Shown here piece by piece: positions 19,508 to 46,482 of a DNA stretch of 64,000 bases (positions are counted from its first letter, which is position 1; every line of letters begins with the position of its first letter). The DNA comes from Panorpa germanica. Its lineage: Eukaryota > Arthropoda > Insecta > Mecoptera > Panorpidae. Where the stretch lies: NCBI GenBank assembly GCA_963678705.1, contig OY783209.1, positions 7,316,001-7,380,000 of the forward strand, written 5' to 3'. A program made the translations under genes and the position numbers. The notes below the pieces were generated by a model, which saw nothing but the letters and a program-made list of their open reading frames with translations, had not been told where the DNA came from and did not search any database.

Positions 19508-21662
19508 ATGTTTAAACAATATTTAAAAGTGTTACTCACTTTGGTGCTATTACATGCTAAAGGTACAGTATAAAGTCAAAGAAAAACCAGATATAATTGA
19601 AAGCAATCCTGGTAGAAAATTGTTCTATAAGGAATACTTTTTCCATATACAAACTATTTAAAGGTTGAAAACTTTAAAACTTGTTAACAATCTTTTCAAT
19701 AATTAAACAAACTTAAGAAAACCTTTTTAAAGATTAAGTTGATCTTCTTTTAGATTAAATATTACCAGGTTTTGCATTTATGTTTAATTTTAGCGAGTAT
19801 ATATTAAATAACAAATTTTGTAATGTAATTCTTCAAAGCAAAACGCACTTATGAGTATGTTACAGTTATCGATTTCTGTTTTAGTTGAATGTCAACAATG
19901 GAATGCAACAAGCTTACTTCCGAGTGCACCAAACTGTGGTATTTCTTTAAACGATCGTGTTATCGGAGGGGAGATGGCAGGACTGGATGAATATCCATGG
20001 TTGGCTCTACTACAATATCGTACAAGTTAGAACCAAAGTTAAAATTTGTAAAAAATTGAATTTCTTTATATAAAATTATAATAATAACATTGTTGCAGAA
20101 AGAGGAAATCTAAGTTTCGGATGTGGAGGGGCCTTAATAAATAACAGATATATACTAACTGCTGCTCATTGTGTAACAGGTCTGCCGAGAAATTTTGAAA
20201 AATTGTAAGGAAATTTTAATCATTTAAATAAATTAATATAAAAGCAAACAAAAAAGAGAATTAAAATTTATTTATGAAATCTTTTAGAGTTTCAATTCGC
20301 CTAGGAGAGTACAATATTGAAACACCAGAGGACTGCATGACAATCAATAATAAACTAGAATGTATCGATCCTCCAATCGATATACCAGTAGAGGATATTA
20401 TTTTACATCCCGAGTATAAACAAAAGAACAGTAACAATAAAGCGCACGATATTGCATTGGTCAGACTAGCTAAAGAAGTGGAAAAAGGTAAATAATATAT
20501 TTGGTCAAAAGTTTGCAATTAAACTTATTGTGTATTTTTATAGAATTTAAGGCATGATTGATATCTTAAATCAATCGTGTCCTAATTCAGTCCGAATTGA
20601 AAACAAATATATATTACGTAATATTTCTTAATAATAAACCAAATAAAATGTAATTCTAATAATTTTCCTAATTGTTCTGATATATTACTTGTTTAACAGA
20701 CTATATGAAGCCGATTTGTCTTCCAACTCCAGATTTAGTATCTCTTAAATCTGGAGATACTGTATACGTTGCAGGATGGGGAACAATTGATAGAGATGAA
20801 GGTAACAATCTTTTGTTTTGTCTTTACATTATAAATTAAAATTATACTTTTAATGGCCCACTTTGACGTTGAAAAATACTAACATTAAAAGAAGTTTTTT
20901 TTTTTTTTTTTTGCGAGTCTTCATGTAGGCCTTTGTTACTAACTTTTTTCATTTGTGGAAATTGTGGAATTAGGATTTTGTGTAAAAGAGTTACAATAAC
21001 AAATGGACCAGACATTCAAACACAAAAATCCGTTGCAACACGTTAGATTAATAGTATAAAGAACTATGTCCGATGTTTATTATAATAGTTTTTACGATAT
21101 CGTGGCGACAGTATGTGAAAAAGAGTAGTTTTGAGATAAACGCTCAAGAAAAAAAAAGATTCAATAAGTTTATATACTGCCAATGTCGCGATCACTTCAA
21201 ATTGATATAACTGAGGAAACATTTGGAATATCGGCATGGTTAAATTGGTACAATATTCTTCAAAGTAATATCAAAAATACATCGATTTTTGGAAAATCTC
21301 AGTTTAGGCTAACCTCTTAAATAAATGAATAACGTTGTGTCCTTTTCTTCCCGTTCCCAGGTAAACTCAGCAACACAAAGATGAAGCTGGAAATACCATT
21401 CGTAGACGAATTATCTTGTGATAGTTTCTATAAAAGATACAGGGCAACTTTATCAGATGGACAACTATGTGCAGGAGGTGAGAAAGGTAAGGATACTTGC
21501 CGAGGAGATTCTGGAGGACCTCTCATGAAACATATCTCCCGGTTCATCTATTGTGAAGGTGTGGTTTCATTTGGAATTAATTGTGGTTTGGAAGGGTATC
21601 CTGGAGTTTACACGAAAGTTAGAGAATATATGGATTGGATTGTTTCAAACCTTAAACCATAA
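19508..21662 (+). CDS. SP4: trypsin-like serine protease of the CLIPB family lacking a CLIP domain
   Basis: Six exons: 19508-19562, 19885-20025, 20099-20204, 20288-20487, 20700-20801, 21361-21662; 283 residues. The signal peptide MFKQYLKVLLTLVLLHA is joined directly to a 25-residue light chain (VECQQWNATSLLPSAPNCG...) and predicted activation at DR43|V44 (VIGG). Exon 2 matches only the 3' part of the SP1-SP3 CLIP/linker exon, and the 322-bp first intron shows no CLIP exon, so the CLIP domain is missing and not merely unannotated. The catalytic domain is complete: [19 protein letters not shown], pocket Asp in KDTC, Gly226 in PGVYTKV. Without a CLIP domain it probably does not dock to cofactors as its neighbours do. 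Cys21 of the light chain has no obvious partner. AATAAA at 21928. Confidence 0.88.
19609..19770. repeat. Possible CCTGGTAGAAAATT foldback repeat in SP4 intron 1
   Basis: Left CCTGGTAGAAAATTGTTCT and right ATTACCAGG have complementary outer ends; a diverged relative of the pairs at 12948 and 27627. Confidence 0.3.
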
Positions 21663-23512
21663 ATTATGAAGAAATTTTGAAAAATTTCGAAAATGTTTTT
21701 GATATTGTTAATTTTAATGTGATTTATTTAACCGCTGCTAATATTTATATGTATGCCATTATATTCAACTTCTTAGAGCAATGTATTTATTGTAATTTAT
21801 TGTAGATAGTATCAAATATTATTAACTTATTTTATATTTATTATTTATTTTTATTAATCGTGTTTATGACAACTATTTCTCATTAAAAACAAGATGTAAA
21901 TCTTATGTTAAAAATATTATTTCATGTAATAAATTTTATGTAAGCGAAATGAAATCTTTTTTTGAACAACATCTACTAGTGGTATAAAGGAAAACGTGTG
22001 TACTGCTCGCATCAAACGCATTGCCTTTATTGAATAGAACGTAGAAGAGAAGGAAAGAGTAATGTAAAGTGCGAAAAAAGGATCGAGATCCTAAGAAGTC
22101 TGGAAAATTACAAATTAAAAAAAATATATGAAAAGCTATTTATACTACAATTTCAATATTATTACTTTTAATTTAATTTTACAATCGGCTTGCAATTTGC
22201 AATTATAATTTCGCAAGTTCTTAGGTGCGATAATCTAGAGTTTTTATGGAGAATCAACCTTTAGATAACTTGCAAAAAGACAAAGGGCTTGTGTCCTATG
22301 TCTTAAGTTCTATAAAAGTGTACTACATATTGATAAAGTGAGTTACTAGAACCTCAAATGTTCAATTATTTTTTAATAACTCCTTATATGTTAAGAGATA
22401 TTAACAATTAAAAAAGTCATTTTGTCTCTTTAATTATTAAAGGGATTTAACGTTGTACACATTCCAAATGCATGTGACATCACAATCGCTGCCAACCTTA
22501 CAGCTCATAAATCTCTGCTATATGTATTTATATATCAAAATATCAAATATTATTTACAACTATTTCAAGGAACAATCAAATTTCAATATTATGTCTGCCG
22601 TAACAGGATTAAATAAAATAAAAACTTATTATTCTTTGATTTGCCTTGATTATTTGACTACCAACAGCTATAGAATATTTCCACAGCACTGACTTGTTAC
22701 TAGTGAAAATGTTTAGAAACGTTGTTTATATAATGTAAAAGCACTGATATTTCTTTGAAATGATTATTTTAATTTACGATATTTTATTTCTTCTTTTTTG
22801 TGCGATTTTTATGATACTATTAATATAAAAATATTAAACAATTTGCGGTAGGTTTTTCTCTTTCTTTTGTACATTCCATTTTACTAGTTATCCTTAGTTC
22901 CAATTAGTCTAATAGTGGAACTATCTATTAAGTGGATTTTTAAAATATTTTATTACAGCTTACTTTTTCTTAATAATTTTCATAGAATTTATTTGCCAAA
23001 TATAATCGCATTTTTCTGTAAACTTTTATTTATTTAAATAATAAGAGAGTTATCTTGACTGTACTTCAAACCAACAGCAAGTATAAAGTAAATATTTGGG
23101 GATCTATGATAATTTAAATTCTTCTATGATAAACATAAATAAACTTATAAGGTTACAATATCAAAGGTCACAAGTTAGTGAATACATTAATTTATCAAAA
23201 TACTAAAACTGTTGTATTTATAAAATTGGTCTGATAGTAACACATTATAAAACGAGTTCAATATTTCAATAATTTCTTTTTTACTATAACTATGTAAGAT
23301 AACATTTATATATTTAATATTTAAAAAAAAGGTTAAACAAAAATCTATTAATTAAAGAAAATTGTAGTTTTTCATAAAATGAAAGAAATCTTAAAAATGT
23401 TTGAGAAACTGTGGCTTCTCAAGAAAGTAATAACATATCAGTTTACTGGAAGTTTAAACATCAGTAGTCGTTTGTTGTTTAGTTGTGAAATAATATAAAT
23501 TATTGATTCGTT
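21663..23512. other. SP4-SP5 intergenic region
   Basis: Contains the SP4 poly(A) signal at 21928-21933 and copy 1 of the GGRCTTGTGTCC element at 22285. No gene; the open frame at 22453-22692 lies inside the repeat. No clear TATA box before SP5. Confidence 0.55.
22285..22695 (+). mobile_element. GGRCTTGTGTCC-ended element, copy 1
   Basis: Begins GGGCTTGTGTCCTATGTCTT and is nearly identical for about 400 bases to 53741 onward, in the same orientation. It stops near CACAGCACTGACT, short of copy 2, so it is truncated. No protein-coding capacity seen. Confidence 0.65.
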
Positions 23513-26500
23513 ATGAAGTGGTTAATCTTTGTGCTTTCTTATGTGTTTTGCTTAGTAGCCATTGTGGAGTGTGCCAGTAAGTTTATTTTTAATAAAAATT
23601 TTATAGATACTAGTATATGTATCAGGCATTTCATAGTAACGAGCGTTACAGTTGTGCGTATGAGATTTGAATATAAAATACGCGAAATTTTGAATAATAC
23701 TTGACCGATATGACTGAAAATTTGCAAATATATAACAGACATTCACCCGAATATAACACATAAACATTGGGTCAATCGACGAACGAATAGTGCAAACGTT
23801 TCATATATTCCTTTACGAACTTTTCTGTTAACAAAATGAAAAACACATTTGCAAAAATTAAAGAGTATTAAATTATTTGAATAAGTAAAAGTGGTTTGTA
23901 TTCCTCTTCTTTTAATTTAATTTAGTAAACGTTTGCCTATTTCCGATGCTGAGTCCTATCATCGACAAATTCTTACAACTAGTTTTTGAGGAGTCGTGGT
24001 GTCGCATATGTGAACTATTATGTTTATGAATAAAGATGTACATATTTTATCTTGATCCAGAAAATATAACTCTGTACAGGGATCAGTAGTTAATCTTTAA
24101 AATTAAATGGTTTATTTAGAATATATAATACTCTGGTGATAGGATTCAGTATTGGAAATAATTCAACGTTAAATAAGTAAAGAAATCAGTTATTTTTATT
24201 GTCTTTATCTTAAATGTATTTGTAAATACTATTTTGCTTTAGCGGCAATAACTGTCTAGAATTGGTGTAGTTAAAGATATATTTCAAAGAAAAATAGTTA
24301 TTTTGTAAAGATCTTACTATTTAATAACGTAACATATCCGTTAAACACAGTTACGTGTATTTAAAGATTATCTAACTTACCATAACGTAACCAATGTTAC
24401 TCAAAATAAAACGTTTTGTGACATATTTTATCGAAAAGTAAATCTACGTTTTTGTTCATTAACATAGTTAGCAAACTTTTTAAGTACACCGATTTAAGAA
24501 TTATAGAATCTTGAGAAGTATTTTTAAATTTATATAAATATAACTAATACCAGGTTTCGTTTTAGTAAAATATTGAATGAATATAAACTAACAACAATCA
24601 TGCATTCTGTTTCACGGGTACAAACCACTTCCACTTACTAAATTTAATTGTTATTTTTTTGTTACAAATGAGTTAAAGTATTTTTTTGAAATTTCTGTGC
24701 TTGAAAATATAGTAAACTTACTTTAAAATACTTATTGAATAAAATATTGACTTAGCTTGATTAATACTGCTACAAATGAACTGGGAATTTTCTGGTCAGA
24801 ACAGAAGGTCATTTGGTTTGTTTTTTTTAAATAGCAGCTTCAATCGATGGTCAAACCAGGTAGTCTTACTTGATTTGTCCGTGTTTTAAATCACGTGTAT
24901 ATTTTATATTAATGTTTAAATAATACATAAATTTTTTATAAAAATATTAATATAACTCTTTTTCAGAAATATATAATTTGAAAAATGGAAAGAATAAAAC
25001 TTTAATATGTCTAAAGACGAAAAATTATGAGAGGATGTTAACATTTGCATCAGAAAATGAAAAATTCGTGTTTACTAAAAAGTGCGAGACGAAAGGCATA
25101 TCGACCTGCTGCAAAAATGATAAAGAATTTAGGTAGGTAAATAGTTGTCGTGCTGTTGTTCGTGCCATGTCGTGCTTCATCGGTAGAATATTAAAACTTT
25201 GTTATAAACATAAAGGATTTTCAGGTTTCATTTTGATTTTATTCCTAATTCAATTTTTTCTGGGTTTATATTATTCTATTTCTTATTTTTAGGTATGCAG
25301 CAAAAAAATTTCGGACCCCTAATGCGAAGAAAAGAATCCGACGTCAAACTGCGCAGTCACCTGCCGCAGCAGCAGTAGCTAGTTTGCTGCCTGCCAGAAA
25401 AGATTGTGGAAGACAAATTGATAATCGAATTGTCGGTGGCTCAAAAACTGAAATTGATGAATTCCCGTGGCTGGTTCTTATCGAATATGTAAATAGTAAG
25501 ATGAGTTTAATTTCATTTAATTTTCCCCTCTTATTAATAAACCCAGGTTGATAATAAACCTTGGAATTAGCTTATAGCAAGCTAATGGTAAGCGTCCACA
25601 GACTATCACGGAAAGAATGCCAAATATTTTCTATCACGGATAAAAATGCTAAATATTTTTAAGACCATATAATTCGAAAAGATTAGATAGATATCTTTTT
25701 GGAATACTAACTGAAACTATTGTCTAAAATTTTTAGCAAAACAATTCAAATATAAAATATTAAACAAAAAGCAAACGATTCCCCGTTTGAAAACCTAACT
25801 GTAATAATTTTTGAGTTAGGATAAAAATAGATTTGTAACAAATTAGCATTGCTTTTGAAATACATAAAGAGAAATTTAATTGAAAATTCCTAAAAATTAG
25901 TAAATATTTAAAATAGACAGTTTTAGTATTTGGAGAAATCGATTATTGTCTGATAAAGTATGCGTATTTAAGTTATGCGTATTTAACATAATCCTCTAAA
26001 TACAAAACGTAATATAATTTACTTAACGTTACGTTTTATTATTCATTGAAGGTTATTATAATTCTATTAAGTTCTCCACCAATAAAAATCTTTTACTAAA
26101 CCTTTACCTTTACAAAATTTTAAAAGATATATATTAAATTAATTCACATACAGTATTCTTGGCCGACTTAAAATAACATTTAATTATTACACAGAAATTA
26201 TACAAGGCAAAGGTTTTGCTTGCGGCGGGACAATAATATCTTCACGGTATGTTTTGACAGCAGCGCATTGTGTCACTGGAACTGGTTATAGAAAATTAGG
26301 AGGAATGTAAGTTTATTTAAAATATTTCACCAAATATTTTTTATGTTTATATTTGCTTAAATTTACATAGCGAATCTCTTTGGCTTGGAGAACATAACAC
26401 CGAAACAGAAATTGATTGCATTATTGAAAAAGGTGTAGTATCAAGTGATTGCGCTGATCCGCCAGTTAAAGCTCTTCCAGAGAAGATCATTCCTCATGAA

Positions 26501-28079
26501 GATTACGTTCCAGACTCCTCCAGTGGATATAATGACATTGCACTGGTTAGGGTGCAATCACCTATTGTATTTACAGGTAATTCATTTTTGAGTGCATCTA
26601 CTTTTGATAGTTATTAGCACTAAATATACATTTATCAACATTTTATAATACATAATTTATACATTATATAATTTTTTTTCCTATTTTTCAGCTTTTCTTC
26701 CTCTAATAACTTCATCATCCATCTTCCAACATCACTTTCATTATATCTTTATAGATTCATCTGTTTTTATTTCAACAAGAACTGCATCACGATCTGATAC
26801 AGGAATCGCCTCCATGCGATGTCCACATTGCATTCCTTGCTTCTTTTGAAATGCTCATTCTAATATCTTAGAGGAAGAACTTCTTCTATTAGCTCTTTCT
26901 TAATTATTGTGTATCACTTTTCCACATGTCTACCAATTGTATACTGCTAATTAAGTCCTTCCAGTGCACAACTTCTATACTTTCAACTATATCCATCTCT
27001 TCTTATCAAGTTGTTTTTCTATTCTTCCTTTTCCGTTATCTTACACATTTAAAAAAGAAGCGATCCATTGATGATGAGGTAGATTTTCTACTTAAGATTA
27101 ACAATATAGACCCAAAGAACAAATGTAGTCCTATACAAATATCCCATTTAAATCCCGTTTGTAGTTACGATAGTTTACCTCTACATATTTTATGATAATG
27201 ATTTCTTTAAATATTGTTTTACAGATTTTATAAAACCTATTTGTCTTCCAACCGCTGAATTTCCGGAAGTTGCAATCGCCCATGGACAACGCTATACAGT
27301 CGCTGGATGGGGTAAAACGGAAGAAGGTATTTTAATTCTATTGTAGTTTTTATACAATTTAAATAAGCAATAAATAGTGAGGAAGTTAGTCAAGCCAATA
27401 GAGAAATTGCACCAGAAAGGGTAAAACTCTCTTTAAAAAGGAAATGCTAGAAGCATCAGCTTAATATATTTTAACTACTTAGTAATTTACAATTTTAATT
27501 TAAAAGGACAATTATTTCACAATTGCAATTATTATGTATTTATAAATTTGCCAAAGTGTTGCGCACAAACAATTACATTTAGAATTCGGTAGCATTTGAT
27601 TTCTTCCAAACAAAAATATTCCTCTGCCCAGGTAGAAAATTTTCTTGGTGTACATGTTTCGTACTGACTTTCTTGCCAGATAATTTTTAGGTTCAGTTTC
27701 TACTTATATAGATATTTTCTTCCAATTCAAGATTCATTTTCAACCTGGGTTTTCCACTAATTCACATTTACTTTCAGGTACAAATAGTCCAGTTAAACTG
27801 AAGGTATCAGTCCCCATTGTTGATGGAGGCATATGTGGTCCACATTACGATGGTGTTTTGGAGCTAACATCTAGTCAAATTTGTGCTGGTGGAGAGAAGA
27901 GGAAAGACTCTTGTACTGGTGACAGCGGTGGTCCTCTGATGGGAGTTTCTGGTGTCACATTTTATACTATCGCCGTTGTCTCTATCGGACCCAAACCTTG
28001 TGGTCAGGAAAATATGCCGGCTATTTACACCAGCGTACCGGCTTTTATGGATTGGATTACTAATAATGTTGTTGCCTAA
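23513..28079 (+). CDS. SP5: serine protease with a four-cysteine CLIP-like domain
   Basis: Seven exons: 23513-23576, 24967-25132, 25293-25495, 26195-26306, 26371-26576, 27225-27326, 27778-28079; 384 residues. A signal peptide (MKWLIFVLSYVFCLVAIVECA) precedes a CLIP-like exon with cysteines only in LICLK, TKKC and STCC, so canonical Cys1 and Cys3 are absent. The linker holds RIRR (residues 91-94), a furin-type RXRR site, then an Ala-rich run. Predicted activation is at NR122|I123 (IVGG). The triad is in TAAHC, NDIALVRV and GDSGGP, with pocket Asp in KDSC. MPAIYTSV places Ala at position 226, and the loop SIGPKPC is one residue longer than in group A. Expected to be a secreted, probably active protease with altered S1 pocket and CLIP fold. 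Introns carry small inverted repeats. AATAAA at 28361. Confidence 0.87.
24341..24465 (+). repeat. Dispersed repeat RepA, copy 2 (SP5 intron 1)
   Basis: Starts TTAAACACAGTTACGTGTAT and shares ACGTTTTGTGACATATTTTA and the AAATCTACGTTTTTG...CATTAACAT end with copies at 52716 and 58581. No coding capacity. Confidence 0.6.
27627..27749. repeat. CCCAGGTAGAAAATT foldback repeat in SP5 intron 6
   Basis: Left end CCCAGGTAGAAAATTTTCTT faces right end AAGATTCATTTTCAACCTGGG's core (ATTTTCAACCTGGG). A 123-bp element with imperfect inverted ends and no open frame. Confidence 0.55.
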
Positions 28080-28093
28080 ATTAAATCAAATTG

Positions 28094-28163
28094 CCCAGGT
28101 ATAAAAGTATCTTGCAGTTCAAGTTTTATTCATTAATGCATTGCAATACATTTTTTACCTGGG
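28094..28163. repeat. CCCAGGTA foldback repeat after SP5
   Basis: Left CCCAGGTATAAAAG and right TTTTTTACCTGGG are inverted; 70 bp, just 15 bases after the SP5 stop codon, so it should lie in the SP5 3' UTR. Confidence 0.5.
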
Positions 28164-29609
28164 TTTTGTTTCAGCTTTATTTCTTCAGTGTACCGTAAAA
28201 TATGAATGAATTTTAAGATACTAGAATATCATAACGGACACAATTTTATTAAAGAAACAATTGATTAATTTTATGACCTTATTACTGTTATTTATTAGTG
28301 ACGTAATTAAAACTATTCTGCACTTTTACTAAGGCCTCTCTGATTGACAATGTTTCAAATAATAAATTTCAATTATATTTAAAAAAAAACATGTTGGTTT
28401 AATACCTTCCCTTTCCTCACTTTTTTCACTGTCACTTTAAGGTAACATAATTTTTATTTTACATAAATTTAAATGCTACCAAAATAGTCGTCGGCGATAG
28501 CATTGTAATCAAAAAATAAATAAATAAAAAAGAAAACATATTTCACGACTATTTTAATTGCCAAAAAAGTAGATCTATTTTGCAAAAAGGGTCACAAAAC
28601 GTTGCAAGATAATGTAAGGTTTAGTTTAAGATATATAGTTGATATATAATGAAAACCCCTGCTATAGAATATTCCATGAATTCTAAAATATTCAAATCTT
28701 TATTAATAACAATTGCTAAGTTATTACGTTTTGCAGCGAGCGAGCGACTGAGGGAGTAATATGTATATCGCACAACAGAAATACTAATTACATTAATTAA
28801 GTGATATAAGTTGACATTTATAATCACAAATTGTTGTGTTTATTTGACATACAATATGACTACATTTATTATATGTGACACGCGATATGCGATGTTCCAA
28901 CTTAATTAGTCTGAATGTTTTAGATAACAATATTGTTTTCATAACGAATTCCAAGAAGCCAAATACTAATTGTTAATTTAGGGAAAAAATCAACTTTGAA
29001 ACAAATGCATTTCTATAATGAAAAAAGGAAAGCGTTCACATTCAACACTTCCAAATGTAGACGGTTGGTAACTCTAATCAAAGACAAGACATACAAAATT
29101 ATATTGAAAAATATAATGTTTGCTGAAAAATAGGTGAACTTCTTTACTGTCTAAAAGTGGGCACTCCGAGTAGAATTTTATCCAAGATGTTGTAGAGATC
29201 CCGATAGGGATAATGATAAATGTCTAGTATGGAAAAAACGCAGCTGCCTCACGATGGCCTTATAGGCTTCTAGTCAGTTAATAATCTATATAAGTTATTG
29301 ACTTTCAATTAAGAGAACCCTAAAGAATATATATTGAAAAATAAGATAACTAATCAATTTTCTCTTATACAAAAAGTCAAGAGCTTGCAAGACAATCGAA
29401 AAAAACACTACAGTTGCATTCTTATACACATACAAACGCAATGATATTATGTTGGCTTGAAGAGGTGACTTAAATTTAAAAATAATAAAACCACTAAAAA
29501 ACCAGTACCTTAACGAAATTACTAATTAGCAACTGTCTGATAATAATTAATTAATTGCATTATTTATAACGAATTAAATGATATCAACAGTACGTTATAA
29601 GGTTATGGC

Positions 29610-29616
29610 TATATAA
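29610..29616 (+). promoter_or_regulatory. TATA box of SP6
   Basis: TATATAA (CTATATAAGGG) 61 bases before the SP6 ATG. Confidence 0.5.
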
Positions 29617-29670
29617 GGGAATAAATTTTACGTAAATGTTTATTTTGAGGAATAACTATTTTCGTAAACA

Positions 29671-32647
29671 ATGCACGTACGGTGCAAATGTTTCTTGATT
29701 ATTTGTGGCATGGGTTTGCTTGTTTGTGGTAAGTTGTATTTGAGATAAGTAAATGTTAGTTTTAAGAAAGGTCAAATTATTGACACATATAAGGAGAATT
29801 ATTACATTCAAAAAATTAGCTTATAATTTTAGTACAGTTTGTAAAATAGTTAAAAAAAAATTAAGTTAAGCCATATTTATCAACATTGTGATTAAATTTA
29901 GTCTGTTACATGTATTAAGTACAGCCACCGAATAAAATATAATACTGTGCTATATAAAGCGTATATAAAGTTTGTATTTAATATCCATCTATACTTTTGC
30001 TTATGATTGTCGCTAGTGAACTATCTTTAGTAAAATCTAGTTTCATTTAATCTTAAAACGTCTAAATTTCCCTTCAAATCAGGTTTTATTATTCAAGTCC
30101 CGACCCAAATATTTAAAATGAGTATAGCTATTTGTTAGAAGCTATTAAAACAAAACTAACGTACTTACAGTCAGCAGATTCAGTTTAAATAGCATGCCAA
30201 TATGTCTTCGAAAAACTTACCTGAAAAAAAGAAAAACAATGGTTAGAAATATGAATTATGCATTGCTGATTTTACATATAAAAACTACATTCAATTTTTC
30301 AACTATATATTGTCATTAATTTACATTGAATTAAAATTAATATTTATATAAAAAAAATTTAATTTTGATATTAATCAAATTCGTAAATCTAGTTTTAAAT
30401 ATTATAGCTATTTAAATAAATTAGCGTGTCGCTTCTTTTATAAGTAGACATCCAGTAAAAAGTTTTAAAAAGTACGAGGTCAGTCAATTTATGTGCCATC
30501 TAAAGTGGAATCGTCTATAAATATTTTAATTTTTTAAATAACCTTGTGAATGAATCGTTTAACATTTACATTACCAATCAACATCATGAGGAGGAGGGTA
30601 GGGGAATGAGGAATATTATGTAACGTTGCAAATTACGACAACGAATAATTAACTTACTTTAATAAAATTTACGTGTCTTATTACGTTTATACAGTAAAAA
30701 ACGAAAGATGAATTCTGCTGTCATAAACATGAAAACATATAGGCATATAAAACTGATCAACTGAAAAGGAATTCTTACTTTTTTCATTATTTAAAACTAA
30801 TTTCTATTGCTTGACACTTCCGAAGCTGTCTCTGAAACCCCTGAAAATGTCACTACTGGCAATACTGAGTGTGGCGTGCAAAGAACAGGTCTATCAGCAG
30901 GAAAAATTTATGGCGGAATAGAAACGCAGCTTGGCGAATTTCCATGGATGGTGTTACTGAATTACAACAGGATAAATCGATTTGACTGTGCTGGAGCGTT
31001 GATCAACGAAAGATATGTCCTCACAGCAGCTCACTGTTTAATTGGAGAAATTAATCGAGTAATTGGTCATTTGTAAGTAATATAACATGCACGTAGATAT
31101 CTAATTATAATTTCAATATTTTCTTAAGTTTTTGCTTCAATTCAGGACATTTGTTCGCTTAGGGGAGCATGATCTCTCTCAGAACCCGGATTGCTTCCAA
31201 AAAACTTGTGCACCGAAAGTTTTGGATATTCCAGTAGAAAAGATTATTCCACATCCTGGGTATGATCCATCTTCTGCTCAATCTTACCATGATATTGGGC
31301 TGATCAGGTTATCCCAAAACGTTAAATACACGGGTAAGACATAAATTTATACATTCCAGCTAGATGATGATGAATTTCACTAAGTTTTGTTTTCAGATTA
31401 TATAAGACCTATATGTCTACCCAAAAATGAACTAAATGACAATCTGAATATTGGCAAGCGATTAATTGTTGCAGGGTGGGGCAGAACACCATCAGGTAAA
31501 ACTTTAAACGAGTATTTTACCAGTATATATCCAAAATTATTGATATAGTATTGACCAGTACAAAACCAGATGAAAAGATGATATGATAGTCCAGTTAATT
31601 TATGAGATATCTTCGAAGATATATGTAAAATTGTATCCCCTATCTGATTATATATTTAAAGAAAATTAAAAATACAACGAAACAAAATTAGGATGTTGAT
31701 AAACTTGTCGATTACCGCTTCGATGCAATGTCGAATAGTTTCGTCGTTATTTATAGATTCCAAGAAACACCAAGCATTATATCAGGCACTACTCATATGA
31801 GGCCACGTCACCACAAAAATTTGTCAAAATTAATAGGAGATCGTTGAAGGTAGGATAAGTATCTGAAATAGGCAAACGCTTACAGAAAAATCTTTCAATT
31901 ATTCGTGGTAAATCGTAAACTAATGCTCCTTGATGAAATAGTGATTCTTATAATAAAATTATGTGTTCTTATATATTATAAATTGTGACTGGAACGAACT
32001 ACGTCTGCCAGCCGGCTGTGCGGGACTATTGTCAGTAGGATGTATTGGAATTGATTTGCATTAGAACACTTTAGCAAGAGAGCAAATTACTTCTTTAACG
32101 TCTTTTAATACACCAGTCCAGTGTGTACTTCCAGTATGGAATCAGCGTAATAATTTTAACTATAAAACTAATATTTTCAATAATGATAAGATAAATTTTA
32201 GCGGTTTAATTATTTAAAACTTGCCCAGCGCCAATGCCTATAGTTACGTTACTGTTTATTATTAGAAAAAGTTATTAAAAATATAGTTCTAAGTTGTACA
32301 AGTAATTTACGTTTACAGGATCGTTTAACGACGTCAAATTGAAAGTGTCCGTGCCTTTACAACCGAATGAAAAATGTACAAAGGCTTATTCTACAATATC
32401 AAATGCAAGCATAGCACTAATTCCAGAACAAATTTGTGCTGGTGGTGAATTAGGAAAGGATTCATGTCGTGGAGATAGTGGAGGTCCTTTAATGGCAACA
32501 TCAGCTCCTGCAGGATCATGGTACGCAGTTGGAATAGTTTCCTATGGACCTAGACCATGCGGGCTTAAGAAATATCCTTCTGTTTATACGAATGTATCGT
32601 CATATATACAATGGATTCAAGGTCAAATTTATTCATTTATTTACTGA
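29671..32647 (+). CDS. SP6: trypsin-like serine protease of the cluster without a CLIP domain
   Basis: Five exons: 29671-29728, 30826-31072, 31146-31333, 31397-31495, 32319-32647; 306 residues. The signal peptide [19 protein letters not shown] is followed by a 26-residue light chain with one Cys (TECG) and predicted activation at GK46|I47 (IYGG), so the activator must cut after Lys. Intron 1 (1097 bp) shows no CLIP exon. The intron that divides the start of the catalytic domain from TAAHC in all other members is missing; exon 2 spans both. Triad in [13 protein letters not shown] and GDSGGP; pocket Asp in [12 protein letters not shown] puts Ser at 226. The SYGPRPC loop is of the group B type. 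The exon 2 acceptor (at 30825) has a weak pyrimidine tract, so the light-chain start is the least certain part. AATAAA at 32695. Confidence 0.83.
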
Positions 32648-34059
32648 GGCTTACAGAACTGTACTCACAATTATTATTGCTATGTTAATTATTAAATAAA
32701 AAATATAATTAAATATTACTCATGCTTTGTTTATGTATCTCTAAAAATTTAATTGGATAGTAAACTGTATGTTGTGATTTAAATTCACGTAATTATAATT
32801 ATTGAGGTAGGAGTTTTTGTTATTACGAGTATTTTATTACGTACAAACATATTCCGGTTAGGATTTTCAGAATGTATGAACGCAACCGTCTTTTCACGCA
32901 CTGGTGACTCCAGTCACTGTCAAGATATTCTTTACACGGTAAACTACAGTAAGATCGGACATTTGGACTTTCTAACAGAGGTAAACTAGGACGGCGCAAG
33001 TCAGACACGGTCCCTTTTTAATATTTATTACGGTACGAGCACGAGTATCGCTTCTCGTCTCGTAAAAGACCTTTCTCAAAACTATTGAGACGGTACCGTG
33101 ACCACTACGGCGAGACCCGAGAGTCTCGATTCTGGTCTCGTTGACGTTATTTAAAAAAAATAATCCGAAAAAAATAAAGTACACAGTAAACATTTTGGAG
33201 TCACTTTGACATCATATTTGAGATGCGTATGATTTTTTTGTAATGAAAGAGTTCATTTATAGTTCAGTTTCTCACATTCGTTCATATGAAATGTCTGTTT
33301 TATCTGCTACAGATGACGGAACCACTCCACCTTTCGGAATACAAATGAAGATAAAGTTGATGCGAACTATAATTGAAGTGAAATAGTGATAGAGACGTCA
33401 CAAAAAGGGACACTTCACCAAATGTTTACTGGGTTATAAGAAACATAAACGTTCAACCTTTTTTTATTACAAAAAAGGGTAAACAAACATCTGTTAAATA
33501 TTTTATTTTATAATTTTGTCTTTTACAACATTTTTTGAACGGAAACGAATGTTTTAAGGGAAAATAAATGTGAACATAAATTATTTACAATGCGATTGTT
33601 TGAAGATTTTTTAGCCTTTAGTTGCCGCAAAAATGTCGCTGAGCGTAGGTGTTAATAGTGTCAACCTTACAAATTTAACAGATGCACATGCGCTTAACTT
33701 CTCCTTCGACTCTGTCACAAATCCAAGAAATATATTTCTGCATTTAACAAGAAAACTGCTAATGAATAAACTATGATTGTAGATAGCCTATAGACTTATA
33801 ACCAGTATGACTCTGCCTAAAGGTTAAACTTGTTGTTTGTTCTTAAAACAACAAAAACACAACTTCTCAAACTATTATAAAATGATATCATTTCAAAAGA
33901 AACTCATAAATATATATTTAAAATAAGTTTAACAATCTTTGAATAAACTTGAATATTTAATAATACATTTCTGAGATATACTACCAGTCGAGGTTTGAAA
34001 TCGCAAGAAACACGAATATAAAGTACATTAGAAAATTGTTAATTAAAACTGAATACAAA
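32648..34059. other. SP6-SP7 intergenic region
   Basis: Contains the SP6 poly(A) signal (32695-32700), a GC-richer segment at about 32820-33170 with several CGAGAC/GTCTCG-type short inverted motifs but no supported gene, and a 252-bp inverted-repeat element at 33183. Confidence 0.5.
33183..33434 (-). mobile_element. 252-bp MITE (CCCAGTAAACATTT ends), copy 1
   Basis: Ends are ACAGTAAACATTTTGG and CCAAATGTTTACTGGG, inverted complements. It matches, in opposite orientation, an element of the same 252-bp length at 52058. Non-coding; superfamily not determined because no clear target duplication is visible. Confidence 0.75.
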
Positions 34060-37000
34060 ATGAAGTGGATGGTGATAACGCAAGTAGTTTTATTATATGT
34101 GATATGTGCAACTTGTAACAGTAAGTTTTAGAATTAATATAACTTATTCAGCCTGCGTATGTTTGTGCTCGCAAAACTCGAAAAGTAGTTGGTCGATTGA
34201 CTTGAAATTTGGACACGACGATGCATTCAAATACGTTTGCTTTCGTTTCTTTCCAGTTGATCATAGTCTGTGCGTGTGCGTGGGTTTTATTTACATTCCC
34301 ATTCATTCATATCAGACTTAGACATTCTCAGTTTCATTTCATTCTAATATCTCCTTACTAGATACTGTGGATCCCCAAAACTTACTCATCATCTACTAAT
34401 ATTATTAAAATTTCTTATTGACTGATTGATTTGCGAATAATTTAAGAAAAGTCAAGCACTAATCTTTAAATTCATTAGTGAGATAACTCCAAATACTGAA
34501 TTTTGAAATAACAACGAAAATAATATTTGAATTTCAAGTTTTCCAAAACAAAAGTGCGGCAATTTGATTAATGCATACAAATGTGAGGTTGCAAACCTTA
34601 TCCCCGAATCAGCCAGAACCGAATGTGACAACTGTGTTGTTAGTAAAAGAACGAACGGGTTTACGAGTGAGATAAAACACACGGCACGAACGTAACTAAA
34701 CTGATTTGAAACTGGTTTTGAGCATATATTCAGCGACTATATGTCTCGGTCGCAGGGGATTGTTGGTTTCATCAACAGAGATGTTTACGAATACTATTGA
34801 AAAATATTTAAATACATACATACAATCAAATATAACACAATAAAATTCTCTGTTTTGCTATTGTTATAAATTCTATAGAGTCACGATACACGGCTCCTTC
34901 TCGTTTTCGTTGAAAACTTCATTTCTCGTTTAGTTTGCAATCAGAGGACTCGTATGCTTTTCCTCGTGTTTTATCTCACTCGTATACACGTTCAATCTCT
35001 TACTAACAACATAGTTGTAATCATGTTCGCTTCGGGCAGATTCGGGCTATGGTTTGCCACCAGTCGCGTCGTGTACGGAGTGCCTAACTACATGATTATT
35101 AAAAAAAATTCACCTCTAATCAAAAGGTCAAAGAAACGTCAGAGGTCAATACAATTTTCATATAATTTCTCAGAAATTGAGATTGTACAGCACTTACTTA
35201 GTCTTCTTAGAACTTAATCATATGAATCTTGAATGATAAGACAAATAAACAGATTGCCTCATATGTTTACATATTTTATTTTGTACGATACAAGGTTTTT
35301 GTTCATTTTCTAAGAATCACAACATACTAATTGTGTATTTTTAGTCAATGCAACTCACTCTTACTTCGTGTTTGAACAATTGTATACATTTTAGAATATA
35401 TCTTAAAAGTTATAGTTTGTATTTAGAACCATTCATTAAATACGAGTATAAATAAAAAAATAAAATTATTATTTATTATTTTAAAATATTAAATAAAAAC
35501 GAAAGTGAAATATCAAAACAATGTTTGGGAATGCCTTAAATAACTAAAACGAGAAGAAAACATTTCTATTTTAAATATTAACATCTAAGATTAAAAATGT
35601 AATTTAAATTTATTACAGAAGTAACGAAATCACCTGATGGAAATAAAAAACAAAGCGTTTTCTGTATGCCTGTCACAAAATATGAAAAGAGATTAGAACA
35701 AGTTGCAGATGATGTCAAACTTGTAATATCGGATATTTGTTCTTACCAACCGGATGAAGTGAACGTGTGCTGTGCTAATAGTGTCGCTTATAGGTAAATT
35801 ATAGATTCATTAACTAACTTTGGATGATTTTATTAATTAAAATGCATTTAATGTTATATAAAAGATACGATAATAAGAATGCAGTCTAATACCGGTTTCA
35901 CACCAGAAAGACAGTTCAATAAAACACGAACAAAAACTTGTTTTCTTTTAATAAAACACCAATGTTTACACTAAAGAGTTTTGTCTTTTGTTGCTGTTTT
36001 AGTAAACAAAACACATTCCCATCTGGAGTCGGTAAGGTCTGCTTGGTTTGAACACGCAGTTTTGATTTTTTGGACTATTTACGCTTGTCACTTCTTGTTT
36101 ACCATGTTTTTAATTTTTATGGGACACACAGAAAAACACTAAAAACAAAACCAGTCTGTTCATTGTGTACAGACTGTTTTCGAAAAACGGAACTGTTTTA
36201 AAATAAAACAAAACATGATTTTGTTTTGTTTTTTTACAACAAAACTGTCTCAATGGTGTTGAAACCGGCATAACTCTGATTTGGAATTGTAAAAATTGTA
36301 AGATATTTATGGGCGTCAGCAGAATTACTTTCAGGGTGATGCATCTAACTCAGAAGGTACATGTTCAGTATTCATAGAAAAAAAGTAGAGGACACGAATT
36401 TTTTTGAAAATTCGTTGAACATATTTCAACAACAATCGAGATACCTGAAGTTTTTATTCAAACAGTGACTTTAATAATAAAAATGTTATTCCTTTATCTC
36501 TTTCTATGTATTTTCTTTTATGGCAGGGTGTGCAAAGTGCGCCTCTAAGCTCACTCGTCCCAGAGCCCTTGTAGAAAACGGACATTATTAATATCATTGT
36601 TATTTTCAGAGACGCTATAAACAAATTTAAGGAGACAACAATAGAAAAACATAGATACACAAGAGCTGCAGAAAAAGCGAGCCTGCTTCCTAAAAAAGCG
36701 TACTGTGGGAAACAACTAACAGAGAGAATCTTTGGAGGAGAAATTACAGAAATTGATGAATTTCCGTGGCTAGCTTTATTTGAATATCAAAATAGTATGA
36801 TTAAATTGAGTTATGATGCATTATTTGTATGTACTATATATAGATATAAGATATATTTATACTCTTCTAATTGTTGCAGAAATAATAAATGGCAGAGGCT
36901 ATGCATGTGGCGGAAGTATCATAAATTCAAGGTATATTTTGACTGCAGCACACTGCATTACTGGACCCGGCTACGATAGATTAGGCGGACTGTAAGATAT

Positions 37001-38733
37001 GGTTTTTTTCTAATTTTAAATTTCGGTAAAGAAATTTGGATGAATTGTTCTAGTTATTTTTTGTAATGTATGTTTATTGAACAAAACGTAGTAATAGAAA
37101 CGAAGACCACTGCCAACAAATTAATTAGGAACACAGGAAGTATAACAATAGCACTTTAATTGTTACAGTGAAGCTATATGGCTTGGTGAGTACAATGTAG
37201 ACGAAGACCCAGATTGTATTTATCGATATGGTGCAGTAATGAATGGTGAAGAAATGAATGGTGATTGCAATGATGGAGCTGTCAAATTTACGCATGAAAA
37301 AATAATTCCACATCCAGATTATTCCTCATCAGATACAAGTGCTCATAATGACATTGCACTTGTGAGAGTGAATGAACTTATTCCATATACAGGTTTGATT
37401 CTTAGATAAAATGATAACAGAAGAAAAATAATTTAACTAGAATTTTGATACATTATTTTGTTGCAGATTTCATTCGACCAATTTGTTTACCAACTTCTGA
37501 GTTTGCGATTCATGTAGCTGTGGGACAAAATTATACAATTGCCGGTTGGGGAAAAACAGAAAGTCGTACGTTAAACTTTATTAGCCTTATTTTCTTCAAA
37601 CCGTTGAGATAGACTTTTACATAATTTATAATATTAAGGATTGTTTGGTAAGATGAAAAATAAAATGTTTTAGGGGGTTTTACACAGTCAGTTACGATTG
37701 CGATAAATAACCTTTAAGATTGATTTAGATCAGATTTAGATTCAGATAAACTGTCAGTTTATCGTACAGATATACATAATACCAAAATATAGTGCGGATA
37801 TGAACGAAGATGAAGATTTAACCTAACGCGTTGTTACGAGAAAGTTAGACTTTTGTTTGCAATGAGATCTAACAAATCATATAAAGTGAAATTTAATATA
37901 AATTTAATAATGCATTAGTACATATTTTTAAGATACATTATTTTAAAATGCAAAGGCTTGTAAGCAAAATGAATATACGGTATCTATTTTTTTTAATACA
38001 CTGGTTGAAAGAGTGTTATAGATGTTCTTAAGATTTGCTGCAAGTTGAATATGATATTTGAATTTGAAAAGTGACTGCGGAAACAAATTAGACTAGTCGC
38101 TAATGAATTGCATAATTAAGATATGGTATCAGACGTGTTTGGGAGACCAAGTACCTAGACAGATAATTATCAAAAATTAGTTCGTCTAATAAAAGTATAA
38201 CTCCATAAAACACAGTCCCGGATTTAAGGGGGATCAAACCAAGGTTTTTGCCGCGGTTTATATTCAATAAATTTAAAAAAAAAACTGTAATAATTATTAA
38301 AAAAAATTGAATTAATTTAGAAATTTATGTATATAATAAATGAACAAATATCAATGCGTGTAAAATAACTAAAATTAAAAGGGCAATTTTAAGTTTTTGC
38401 AAGTAATTATTTATTTATTTTACAGAAAGGAATAGTCCAGTCAAATTAAAAGTAAACGTCCCAATCGCTGACTACGAATTCTGTGCTCATACTTACAAAT
38501 CTAAAGGAGTAACTCTGAACAATACAAGTCAAATCTGTGCCGGTGGTGTCAACAAGAAGGATTCCTGTACAGGAGACAGTGGAGGTCCTTTGATGGACGC
38601 TTCTGGAGGCTCTTGGTATACAATTGGAGTTGTGTCATTGGGATCACATCCTTGCGCAACAGAAAATTTCCCTGCTGTATACACCAGTGTTATATACCAT
38701 TTAAATTGGATCGAAAATACACTCGAGGAATAA
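34060..38733 (+). CDS. SP7: serine protease with a four-cysteine CLIP-like domain
   Basis: Seven exons: 34060-34120, 35619-35793, 36610-36794, 36880-36991, 37169-37392, 37467-37565, 38426-38733; 387 residues. Signal peptide MKWMVITQVVLLYVICATC, then a CLIP-like exon with cysteines in VFCMP, DICSY and NVCCA only; canonical Cys1 and Cys3 are missing, as in SP5. The linker is charged and ends with predicted activation at ER118|I119 (IFGG). Triad in TAAHC, NDIALVRV and GDSGGP; pocket Asp in KDSC; FPAVYTSV gives Ala at 226. Exon 5 is 224 bases, longer than its counterparts, enlarging the surface loop (YRYGAVMNGEEMNGDC). Closest to SP5 in exon plan and shared oddities, so the two probably arose by one duplication. 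Introns 1 and 2 hold a Helitron-like fragment and a 381-bp MITE. AATAAA at 38807. Confidence 0.88.
34148..34320 (+). mobile_element. Helitron-like fragment in SP7 intron 1
   Basis: Begins TCAGCCTGCGTATGTTTGTG and matches the element in SP8 intron 1 (42509) until it breaks off near CATATCAGACT, before the CTAG terminus. It lies only 27 bases after the signal-peptide exon. Confidence 0.6.
35890..36270. mobile_element. 381-bp MITE in SP7 intron 2, PIF/Harbinger-like
   Basis: Ends TACCGGTTTCA and (complement) TGCCGGTTTCA form inverted repeats, and CAGAAAGACAG / CTGTCTCAATG continue an imperfect pairing. Flanked by TAA on both sides (35887-35889, 36271-36273), the 3-bp TWA target duplication typical of PIF/Harbinger. 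No transposase frame. Confidence 0.7.
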
Positions 38734-42396: not shown

Positions 42397-45300
42397 ATGT
42401 TAGACAAAGTAAAAGTGGGTTTTGTTGTGTGTGCGGTGTTTGTTTCTGTCATTGCTACCGTCAAGTCAGGTAAGATGCGTTATTTACTAATCTTTGTCTA
42501 TAAGAACTCAGCCTGTGTATGTTTGTGCTTGCAAAACTCAAAAACTAGTCGTTCGATTGACTTCAAATCTTGACACAACATTCGAATACGCGCATGTTTT
42601 CTTTCGTTTCTTTCCAGTTATTCGTCGTCTGTATTTGTGCGTGTGTCTTTTATTTACTTTCCTTTTCATTTATCATCAGGCTGAGCCACAGCGAAGCGGG
42701 GCCGATTTTAGCTAGTACATATGATATGTTAAATGAGTATTATAAATAAATATGTATTTTATTGCGGTATATATTGTGTAATTTAGAAAAAGGGGAGTCA
42801 TTTACAATATTTACTCTTTTATTTACGCGACTCTTTTACTATATTGACAGTTTTTATGGTGTCGGAATATCATGCTTCTCTCACACTGAAATAGACTATT
42901 ATTGCGATAACATCTTTTCCAGTAAAGTGTATTCAAGTTGTTTCGTATTAATGCAGTTTATCATCAGAGGAAATTTATACTTTAAAGTTTATTAATACAC
43001 CACACCAGAAATTTTAGTACCTAAATTAAAAATCGAATGTTGAAATTTTAAAAAAAGTTGGGCAACAAACAAAATTTAAATTTTATTTTATTTTTAATTT
43101 GCCTAAAATTTCATTGATTATGTAAAATAAGTGTATTTCCTTATAAATTTTTAACAGTTAATGCACAATAAATAAATATAAAAAATATCATTCCAATAAA
43201 ATAAGATTTAATAATGAGAAGATTTTTTATGTGAATATTTTTACTCTTTAGACATAATATGCGAATCGCCTCACAAGGAAAAAGGAAAATGTATTTCCGT
43301 AGAAAACTGTCCGGGTTATCAACGTGCTTTAGAATCTCAGACTCTTACACCAGAAACCATTAGCTTCCTGCGATTGGTACAATGTGGTTATGCTGATGGT
43401 GTTGCACTAGTATGTTGCCCTCCATCCGGATATTACAGGTACGCCAACGCAAGAAATATAAAAAAAAAAATTCACACTTTAATATCCTTTTTATTCTATT
43501 AGCAACACAACTCTTTCCACTGGACCCAAGAAGCGGCGTGTTCGACCACCCAGTAATTTGCCCCCGCTAACTGCTGACCGTTTTGGGGAGAGTTCCTTGT
43601 TACCTAATGTACTGACCTGTGGACATCAGTCTGGCGGAGATAAAATTATCAATGGAGAAATTACCGGCATTGACGAGTTTCCGTGGATGGCTTTATTGGG
43701 TTATAAGAAAAGTAAGGCGATAAAGAGAAATATAGGAGAACTTGTATGTACAGTCATAATCCAACTAATGATGTCATAAACATATGATTAGCTTTTGTGC
43801 TTCACATTTACAAGTTTAATTACCAAACGACAGCCATTTTACACTAACATCAAGTACATTAATCAAAATATAAACTATCTAGACATCTCCGCAAAGGTAG
43901 TGAAAGTAATGTTAGCTCATCATTTATCAAATAAAAACTGTAAACTTAATTAATTGTTGATAAATAGCTTAATAATGATTTCAGAGGATCACAAGGGGTT
44001 GGGATTTGCCTGTGGTGGTGTGCTCATCAACCAGCGATACGTATTGACAGCGGCCCATTGCATAGCGGGCCCCAACTACGATCAATTGGGCGGATTGTGA
44101 GTACCATCACGTTACCCATCCTACTGGTCCAGTAGCAGGAGAAGAATTAATCTCTCCTGCGCCACCATCTTAAAAAAATGATAATCAAAATAATGAAGTT
44201 TATATATCTCCATCTTACTGATGGTGTATCTAAAAGATTTTGATCGTCTTTCCGATATCAAAAACTTAAAATTTTTATTACGTTGTATAATATTAAAACA
44301 TAGTCAAATATTAGAACTACCAATCCCTTGTCAAGGAAAAACTACCCTGCTACTGGACTATACCAGGAATGAGAACATCCCTTCTGGCATCCATATCACG
44401 TTCCACGAATCCTGTCTCCTGGCATCATTAATCAAACATCAACAAGTTGAAAATGACTAGCAGATTTACTGACAGTTTGAAATAAAGTTAAATTTACATG
44501 GTTCATTTTAGTTCGATCTTAAATCTAAAGCACTTTAGATTTTACCACGAATAAATAGATAGTACCTAAAGCCACAACGGAATAAAAAAATATATGTAAC
44601 GTATAATTTCTTTATTTTAACTTCATTTTCAAATGTCTTATTTGATAAAAAACATTTCCTCAAAAGATGTAATTTTCCAAACGTAATTCCGTATTTAGTA
44701 ACTTTTGTCGAATGTGAATGAAATTTCGTTTCGTATTAAAAAGATAAAATTCTAAAAAGATAAAATTCTAAAAAGATAAAATTCTAAACATGTATAATTT
44801 CAATCACATATTGAGTTATTATCTATTTCATTTTGATGTTGCTTTATTTATTATCTTTTTATTCGTTGGTTATACATGGCTAAGTATCTATTGCCAGGAA
44901 GGTGAGCAAAAGTCTCCACTTACTTATTTCATGTTTAACCTTAAGTAATTTTAAGATAAACTTATTTAACAACATTAAAATTTTGTTATTAGAGAAAATA
45001 TTCGGCTCGGTGAGTTTAACACGGAATCAAATCCTGATTGTATTCAAGAAGCTGATTTCGAGGATTGTTCGGAAGACCCTCAAGACTTTGGATTTGAAGA
45101 ACTCATTCCACATCCGGAGTATGCAGCAGATAATCCTAATCAGTATAACGACATTGCTCTTATCAGATTGGATAAAGATGTAACTTATACCGGTAAATAA
45201 TTACAGATATTGTGTTCCAAAAGAAAAATACCACCACTTTTCCATTCAAATTACAGCTCTTGTTGAATTGAAACAGAATGGAATTGATGTTAAAATTCAT

Positions 45301-46482
45301 ATTTTAGCAAATAAGTGTAAAACATAAATTAGCCACCACTTGTTTTAAAAAATGGCGAGTATTAGTCTAAACCTTTGATAAATTCATTTAAATAAAATAA
45401 GAGATATGTTGTTACAGTTACTTCTTTACTATATCATAAATACTTGGCATAAATTGTTAATTATTGGTAATAAACGTTCATGAAACGTTCACACCGAGCA
45501 TTGTAGGTTATGTGTTAACGTCATAGTTGTCTATGCAAGTGTATACTACAACTCGAACATTGCCGAATCAAATATTCGGACGTTTTGATCTGCCTTCGTG
45601 TGCTAATTGCAAATGTTTCCCGAATGAGCGTGAACTTTGTGTTCGTTCACACATGCGTGGTGGTACCTTTCAACTCGTGTAATAACAATATGTACGTATA
45701 AATATGACTCGTAAGTTAATATGGTTTATTTATTTACAGATTTTATTCGACCAATTTGTCTACCGACTCCAGAATTTCATAATATAAACACGAGTCCGGG
45801 TCAGAAATATTTCGTAGCCGGATGGGGAAAGACTCAATTAGGTGATCTAATTATTGTAAGGATAAAAACTTGCCTTGTAAATATTTGCTGAATGTATGTT
45901 TTGTTGGTTTTAGGTACTAACAGCCCCGTTAAATTGAAATTGCCCGTTCCAGTAGTTGGCTTTGAAGATTGTGCGGCACCATACACCAGATTCAGCATTA
46001 CGGTAATTATTGCAGAGTTCTTCCGAACAAAGAATAAACCTTTGTGGTAAAACTATAAGTTACAGTGATGTAAACTTGATGTTTTCCTTAAATACTGGTC
46101 ATATTTACTTAAACGAAATCTAGCAAGATGATACAGTGGCTAAGATAATTGTCGTCAGTTCGGGTTCGATTCCCGAAAATAGTTTACTATTATGATAAAA
46201 CGCCTTCCAATAAATGAATGTAATTAATTGGACATGTATTAACGACTTATATTAATTTAGGTGACTCCAAACCAACTGTGTGCTGGAGGTGAATATGGCA
46301 AGGACTCCTGCAGAGGTGATAGTGGCGGGCCCCTTATGGGCAGAGACAATATTACAAACGCGTGGTATTCTCTAGGTGTGGTTTCCTTGGGACCCAAACA
46401 ATGCGGAATTCCTGGTATTCCTGGTATCTACACTAAGGTTAAGGAATACCTCGATTGGATTGAATCATCCCTGAAGCCTTGA
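42397..46482 (+). CDS. SP8: CLIP-domain serine protease with an extra intron and Lys activation site
   Basis: Eight exons: 42397-42469, 43252-43438, 43503-43711, 43985-44096, 44993-45192, 45740-45841, 45914-46002, 46261-46482; 397 residues. Signal peptide ([24 protein letters not shown]), a full six-Cys CLIP exon ([11 protein letters not shown]... VCC), then a basic/Pro linker (KKRRVRPP) and predicted activation at DK134|I135 (IING), i.e. after Lys. Triad in [13 protein letters not shown] and GDSGGP; pocket Asp in KDSC; PGIYTKV gives Gly226. The loop SLGPKQC is group B type. The last coding exon of the family is split by a phase-0 intron (46003-46260) found in no other member. Exon plan otherwise equals SP5 and SP7. 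Secreted zymogen expected in the same type of cascade. AATAAA at 46686. Confidence 0.87.
42509..42715 (+). mobile_element. Helitron-like element in SP8 intron 1
   Basis: Shares CTCAGCCTGTGTATGTTTGT and the following GATTGACTT...GACAC stretch with the copy in SP7 intron 1. It ends AGCGAAGCGGGGCC...TTTTAGCTAG, with CTAG at 42712-42715 preceded by a short GC-rich region, as at Helitron 3' termini. No Rep/helicase frame; non-autonomous. Confidence 0.6.
44737..44784 (+). repeat. Three perfect 16-bp tandem repeats in SP8 intron 4
   Basis: TAAAAAGATAAAATTC occurs three times with no mismatch (44737-44752, 44753-44768, 44769-44784). A minisatellite-like stretch suitable as a length marker. Confidence 0.9.
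46118..46181 (+). repeat. tRNA/SINE-like sequence in the SP8-specific intron
   Basis: GGGTTCGATTCCC (46162-46174) is a canonical RNA polymerase III B box within a perfect T-stem-loop (TTCGGG...CCCGAA). Upstream, CAGTGGCTAAGAT resembles an A box. The remaining arms do not complete a tRNA cloverleaf, so a SINE head or tRNA pseudogene is more likely than a functional tRNA. Confidence 0.5.

Follow-up and report, generated by a model that had tools for sequence, protein, structure and literature searches.

Results

The DNA analysed here is a window of 64 kb from Panorpa germanica (Mecoptera; contig OY783209.1, positions 7,316,001 to 7,380,000), and positions below are counted from its first letter. 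It contains eight S1 proteases, SP1 to SP8, all on the + strand, which we modelled by hand from tblastn matches and splice signals. Two of them, SP5 and SP7, carry an exon with four cysteines between signal peptide and protease domain; judged from the sequence, this exon is real and of single origin, its descent from a CLIP domain is probable, and both proteases are intact. In SP5, exon 1 (23513..23576) encodes the signal peptide, with Cys20 at the cleavage region; exon 2 (24967..25132) encodes the four-Cys CLIP-derived domain, its Cys codons lying at 25008-25010, 25083-25085, 25107-25109 and 25110-25112; exon 3 (25293..25495) encodes the linker, the light-chain Cys (DCG), the activation site NR|IVGG and the start of the S1 domain; and exons 4-7 (26195-26306, 26371-26576, 27225-27326 and 27778-28079; span 26195..28079) encode the S1 protease domain with its triad intact. 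SP7 is built in the same order, with the signal peptide in exon 1 (34060..34120; Cys19 at the cleavage region), the four-Cys domain in exon 2 (35619..35793; Cys codons 35663-35665, 35738-35740, 35768-35770 and 35771-35773), the linker, light-chain Cys (YCG), activation site ER|IFGG and S1 start in exon 3 (36610..36794), and the protease domain, triad intact, in exons 4-7 (36880-36991, 37169-37392, 37467-37565 and 38426-38733; span 36880..38733). The positions that an earlier note on this DNA had given for the two second exons were right: both are flanked by AG and GT, encode about 55-60 residues with exactly four Cys, the last two adjacent (CC), and are in frame with the signal-peptide exon upstream and the linker/protease exon downstream.

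The same note had described the two genes as otherwise functional-looking, and their sequences agree, since the His-Asp-Ser triad, Asp189 and the R|I activation site are all kept. Pfam PF00089 (trypsin) matches SP5 and SP7 with expectation values (E) of 7e-48 and 1e-50, and by Pfam and alignment the triad, Asp189 and R|I site place both among the S1A trypsin-like proteases of the CLIP group 2 type. The linker Cys and the Cys of the PICLP motif are both present, and a bond tying light and heavy chain together is predicted, a pairing also predicted in a survey of the family (PMC1761132).

To place these genes in their array, we extended the sequence by 70 kb on the upstream side and by 20 kb on the downstream side, giving 154 kb (C6:7246001-7400000). 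The upstream 70 kb holds eight further S1 genes (tblastn match clusters, partial models), four of them with a six-Cys CLIP; in the other four, a CLIP was found neither by profile nor by a scan for CC in open stretches of at least 25 residues. No S1 gene was seen in the downstream 20 kb. Within the window, canonical CLIPs are present in SP1 (1746-4340), SP2 (exon 1 at 5300-5360, the remainder at 6099-8931), SP3 (10811-14683) and SP8 (42397..46482; CLIP exon 43252-43438), the N-terminal parts of which match Pfam PF12032 with E values of 4e-13 to 2e-16. For SP4 (19885..21662, 5' end provisional) and SP6 (29671..32647, with a short propeptide), a six-frame profile search and a scan for CC-bearing open stretches detected no CLIP. 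The 16 genes of the array comprise eight with a six-Cys CLIP, two with the four-Cys form and six in which none was found. The 154 kb yielded no additional four-Cys candidate: the pattern C, 2-40 non-Cys residues, C, 4-14 residues, CC occurs in 23 open stretches, which are the ten known CLIPs and 13 others that look un-CLIP-like by eye. We also searched the whole genome (464 Mb, 249 contigs) with a 107-residue piece of SP5 and obtained 11 matches, 10 in the array and one on another contig; the CLIP part of the query (residues 1-44) was matched by SP5 only, and because even the CLIP exon of SP7 was missed, this search says little about further four-Cys copies.

In the tree of protease domains, SP5 and SP7, which are 61% identical there, are sisters (ultrafast bootstrap, UFBoot, 97), and SP8 comes next; a tree of the last exon likewise puts SP5 and SP7 together (91), with SP6 beside the pair (84) and SP8 outside, whereas SP6 falls outside SP8 in the full-domain tree. 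SP8 is the nearest CLIP-bearing relative: it resembles the pair in its protease domain (52% identical) and in its exon boundaries, including the intron after the CLIP exon, but differs from it in having a canonical six-Cys CLIP. The phases of the four-Cys exon (1 and 2, as in SP8), the 24 residues between its first two Cys, the terminal CC, its position and the placing of the sister pair beside SP8 in the tree all point to common descent with CLIP exons. Because SP5 and SP7 are sisters, their Cys losses need only one event; the co-loss in two genes to which the earlier note had drawn attention therefore stands as a shared loss and not as two independent ones.

The spacing of the cysteines bears on which of them were lost. 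In all eight six-Cys CLIPs of the array, successive Cys are separated by 9-5-24-9-0 or 9-5-24-10-0 residues, that is, by 24 residues (x24) between Cys3 and Cys4 and by 30 between Cys2 and Cys4; the reference domains have 9-5-24-9-0 (PAP2 clip-1), 9-5-23-8-0 (PAP2 clip-2) and 9-5-29-9-0 (Grass), and five residues separate Cys2 from Cys3 in two surveys, with one named exception (PMC1761132, PMC4676143). The four-Cys spacings are 24-7-0 in SP5 and 24-9-0 in SP7. A pattern C-x(30-36)-C, put forward earlier for these exons, is thus absent: both genes have C-x24-C, followed by x7 (SP5) or x9 (SP7) and CC. As x24 equals the Cys3-Cys4 distance of the array CLIPs, the first kept Cys is, by spacing, Cys3.

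The four cysteines have been retained over a long divergence. By the Nei-Gojobori method, non-synonymous (dN) and synonymous (dS) divergence between the SP5 and SP7 CLIP exons are 0.76 and 1.73 (dN/dS ratio, omega, 0.44; bootstrap 0.07-0.98), and those between the protease domains are 0.33 and 1.60 (omega 0.20; 0.10-0.31), the dS values of 1.6-1.7 being near saturation. In neutral simulations run to the observed divergence (30% G+C, transitions doubled, stops barred, the MAFFT alignment taken as given), all four Cys were retained in 2/2000 and 1/2000 runs. The overall identity of the two exons, by comparison, is 13/55 against 10.6-10.8 expected (P 0.19-0.21), whereas the control pairs of six-Cys CLIPs exceed the neutral expectation (SP1-SP3, 33 vs 16.3; SP2-SP3, 39 vs 23.2; P 0.001 or less), as does SP8-SP1, a pair of similar divergence (19/55 identical vs 11.0 expected, P 0.001). 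A permutation of the hydrophobic pattern had given 11/51 against 5.0 expected (P 0.00015), but we do not count this signal as evidence: most of it is accounted for by the neutral simulation at codon level (11 hydrophobic pairs vs 8.3-8.9, P 0.12-0.21), and the six-Cys pairs likewise show no significance by this measure (P 0.12-0.40).

The exon falls short of the formal definition of a CLIP domain. Neither SP5 nor SP7 is matched by Pfam PF12032 at E up to 10, whether the query is the full-length protein or just the exon (HMMER filters on). Under a CLIP profile built without these two genes, SP7 scores 5.7 bits and SP5 -0.1 bits, a weak similarity, and neither is listed in a scan of the 154 kb; matches of our first local profile to both were discounted, since both had been in its training set and the matches arose by construction. 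With phmmer, the SP7 exon found no chain in the PDB at E up to 10. NCBIfam gave no match, and a search of viral contigs for relatives gave 44 pattern matches, none confirmed. In one survey a CLIP is defined by six Cys ahead of the protease domain, the fifth and sixth of which are adjacent (PMC1761132); SP5 and SP7 have four, the CC being present. With only four Cys in the exon, the three disulfides of the canonical pairing (1-5, 2-4, 3-6; PMC5372168) are impossible.

One further Cys could belong to the mature proteins. In both SP5 and SP7 the signal peptide has a Cys at its end, at -4 from the old Cys1 position; among the six-Cys paralogues, this residue is Asn in SP1 and SP3, Tyr in SP2 and Ser in SP8. 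With our version of the von Heijne matrix, the cut that keeps this Cys scores highest in SP5 (6.07 vs 4.27) and comes second in SP7 (0.70 vs 1.58). Its retention would bring the count to five, an odd number; each of the remaining ten Cys in either protein has an expected partner, in part from what is known of the family. The remaining part of these expected pairings is taken from a survey (PMC1761132). Another exon supplying the missing Cys was not found either: no phase-1/1 cassette exon in intron 1 of either gene passed our splice filter, which can miss weak sites.

Discussion

We propose that exon 2 of SP5 and SP7 is probably a CLIP derivative of single origin, rewired or partly eroded, probably with two disulfides and under narrow selection, and not a wholly new kind of domain. 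SP5 and SP7 are sister trypsin-like zymogen proteases within a tandem array of CLIP proteases, and their common ancestor would have lost two Cys from the N-terminal third of the CLIP, by spacing Cys1 and Cys2. With these two lost, the 3-6 bond survives and Cys4 and Cys5 are orphaned together, their former partners (Cys2 and Cys1) having gone at the same time; the exon may then hold the native Cys3-Cys6 bond and a new Cys4-Cys5 bond across the C-terminal hairpin, the register of which would persist in SP5 although its hairpin is two residues shorter (x7 for x9). The result would be a smaller, two-disulfide prodomain that stays on the protease after R|I cleavage through the bond between the linker Cys and the PICLP Cys, and that may act as a looser segment for docking or solubility, with a large share of the surface of a classical CLIP abandoned. 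We favour the loss of Cys1 and Cys2 since no two neighbouring Cys are then left unpartnered. This account as a whole, from a single ancestral loss of two Cys to a two-disulfide prodomain, is held tentatively, at somewhat below an even chance. That the two genes stand for a previously undescribed, minimal two-disulfide class of CLIP, with Cys1 and Cys2 lost and Cys4-Cys5 paired beside Cys3-Cys6, stable and selected in two active proteases, seems to us rather doubtful.

Several results weigh against this account, and the first group of them concerns the identity of the first kept Cys. We scored the similarity of the inter-Cys residues to the eight array CLIPs and PAP2 clip-1, against a shuffled null in which the place of the deletion was optimised as well. 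The register in which the first Cys is Cys2, with one 6-residue deletion, gave P 0.003 (SP5) and 0.005 (SP7), and the ungapped Cys3 register was weaker (P 0.058 and 0.027); constrained dynamic programming ranked the Cys2 register above the Cys3 register in 5/6 gene-by-gap-cost runs, all but that of SP7 at gap opening 10; and the first Cys lies 15-16 residues from the exon start, nearer to the place of Cys2 (13-14) than to that of Cys3 (19-20). These observations suit a serious alternative, which we consider somewhat unlikely, in which Cys2 was kept and Cys3 lost, so that the 2-4 bond survives in its native form and the orphaned Cys5-Cys6 pair forms a strained vicinal disulfide, stays free or cross-links chains. 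This alternative requires the 6-residue deletion to have recreated x24 by coincidence, together with an insertion of 2-3 residues upstream, and it leaves two adjacent Cys unpartnered, an uncommon situation for secreted proteins. MAFFT puts the first kept Cys half way between the places of Cys2 and Cys3, and from the sequences we regard the two registers as about even. The earlier note had held that Cys2 is kept and Cys3 missing, and that Cys5 and Cys6 are the orphans: residue similarity mostly agrees with it on the first point and spacing does not, and the second holds in the Cys2 register but becomes Cys4 and Cys5 if Cys1 and Cys2 were lost.

The second group of adverse results concerns fold and constraint, and is the ground of a further alternative. 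We gave AlphaFold six aligned exon sequences, with SP7 or SP8 first and the five paralogous exons following. The SP8 control was modelled with a predicted local distance difference test score (pLDDT) of 76.6 and a predicted template modelling score (pTM) of 0.55, as beta-beta-alpha-alpha-beta-beta, and matched Grass (template modelling score, TM, 0.80, E 1e-4), PAP2 clip-1 (0.74, E 8e-4) and PAP2 clip-2 (0.66, E 0.02). The SP7 model from the same six sequences has a pLDDT of 52.4, a pTM of 0.26 and no helix, and a fold search of the PDB with it gave no match at E <= 0.001, only three chance matches at E 7.5-8.6; a poor model from six sequences is no proof of an absent fold and no support for one, and we based no disulfide assignment on it. 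In the SP8 model, strands 43-47 and 50-55 of a single hairpin carry Cys4 and Cys5, which could pair but may also point to opposite faces of the sheet. In addition, omega of the CLIP exon rises to 0.62 once the Cys codons are removed, and the linker is better conserved between SP5 and SP7 (15/39 identical vs 8.2 expected, P 0.002) than the CLIP exon. The protease has 160/262 identical residues against 99.8 expected, so that of CLIP exon, linker and protease the first is under the weakest constraint, with its conservation concentrated on the Cys. Outside the Cys, selection is largely relaxed, an outcome that the earlier note had named as one that would refute it; the retention of the Cys themselves exceeds the neutral expectation. 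The earlier reading of a rewired fold and not decay is supported by this retention but gains nothing from the SP7 model, which shows no confident fold.

The near-neutral identity of the non-Cys residues, the missing Pfam CLIP match, the failure of the independent CLIP profile to list SP5 and SP7, and the six of 16 array genes in which no CLIP was found would all fit erosion, by which the CLIP became dispensable in this branch and SP5 and SP7 stand midway towards the CLIP-less condition of SP4, SP6 and the four upstream genes; the place of SP6 beside the pair on the last exon agrees with it, and the four Cys would have been kept because an odd number after partial loss would misfold. We nevertheless think erosion, though a serious rival, unlikely, given that the four Cys persist across a divergence near saturation, that reading frame and splice sites are intact and that the full-domain tree sets SP6 outside SP8. 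It is very unlikely that the missing Cys come from elsewhere, through a signal cut before Cys20 (SP5) or Cys19 (SP7) or from a further exon, given the odd count that this Cys would produce.

The closest known systems are the group 2 CLIPs of Pfam PF12032 (Manduca PAP-2, 2ikd and 2ike; Drosophila Grass, 2xxl), which, like the four-Cys exon, lie between signal peptide and S1 domain. They share with it the terminal CC and x24 before Cys4, and with SP7 also x9 between Cys4 and Cys5. SP5 and SP7 differ from them in having four Cys and not six, in lacking a Pfam match and in having room for no more than two disulfides in the exon; the predicted fold, modelled for SP7, is of low confidence. SP4, SP6 and the four upstream genes share the array and the S1 domain with SP5 and SP7, but no CLIP-like exon was found in them. 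In Ostrinia furnacalis, a variant of the protease named SP8 in that species, with clip Cys38 changed to Arg, was present in 3/9 sequenced samples, and the recombinant protein was not activated, for a reason unknown according to the authors (PMC5372168). A clip Cys is replaced there as in SP5 and SP7, but the Ostrinia variant is a single loss that leaves an odd number. Among the matches listed from the open-licence literature, in the parts available, no four-Cys, incomplete or divergent CLIP was described; the suggestion of a previously undescribed variant agrees with this. Genome surveys count CLIPs by six Cys (PMC1761132; PMC10036332, as four Cys plus a doublet), and four-Cys forms would therefore go uncounted and be scored as CLIP-less proteases. 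If a two-disulfide class is true, surveys of this kind would miss such domains everywhere. If the four-Cys form folds, it would reveal which part of a CLIP is dispensable and that a three-disulfide domain can lose half-cystines of two bonds and remain paired. An array in which intact, four-Cys and absent CLIPs adjoin offers a natural series for studying the role of the CLIP in protease cascades.

Other features of the array and the window

Several neighbouring proteases have features of their own. An upstream gene with a six-Cys CLIP (C6:7307863 to about 7309635) has AARC in place of AAHC and is possibly a non-catalytic protease homologue. Two genes without a detected CLIP (C6 about 7278138-7280360 and 7282400-7284470) are arranged head to head, one on each strand, and contain near-identical stretches (CGATFAERIVGGTETKLE), perhaps a young inverted duplication. 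SP2, SP3 and SP4 have an extra Cys near the C terminus, in a WYC or IYC motif, which is absent in SP1 and SP5-SP8. A second CLIP protease locus is located on another contig, on the minus strand at C2:27966001-27986000, where one six-Cys CLIP has Cys1 and Cys2 one residue apart (CNC).

In intron 1 of SP7, 34587-35061 is an imperfect palindrome (62.8% self-inverted over 492 columns), perhaps a foldback element. A Cys-rich open stretch at 34531-34692 in the same intron was considered as an exon of a chemosensory protein and dropped; its two Pfam matches (E 0.08-0.1) are below cut-offs and neither is to that family. Nine other open frames, of 154 listed in the window, gave no Pfam match above cut-off, and Rfam and tRNA scans gave no matches. 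Just after exon 1 of SP7 and of SP8, non-coding DNA at 34148-34324 is 78% identical to that at 42508-42688, which may reflect a dispersed repeat, a recent exchange or a recent duplication. A dispersed repeat family with 82-93% identity occurs at 22282-22693, 53738-54301 and 63603-64000, the last copy inverted. A 250-base element is present at 33191-33440 and again, in the opposite orientation and with 95% identity, at 52040-52290.

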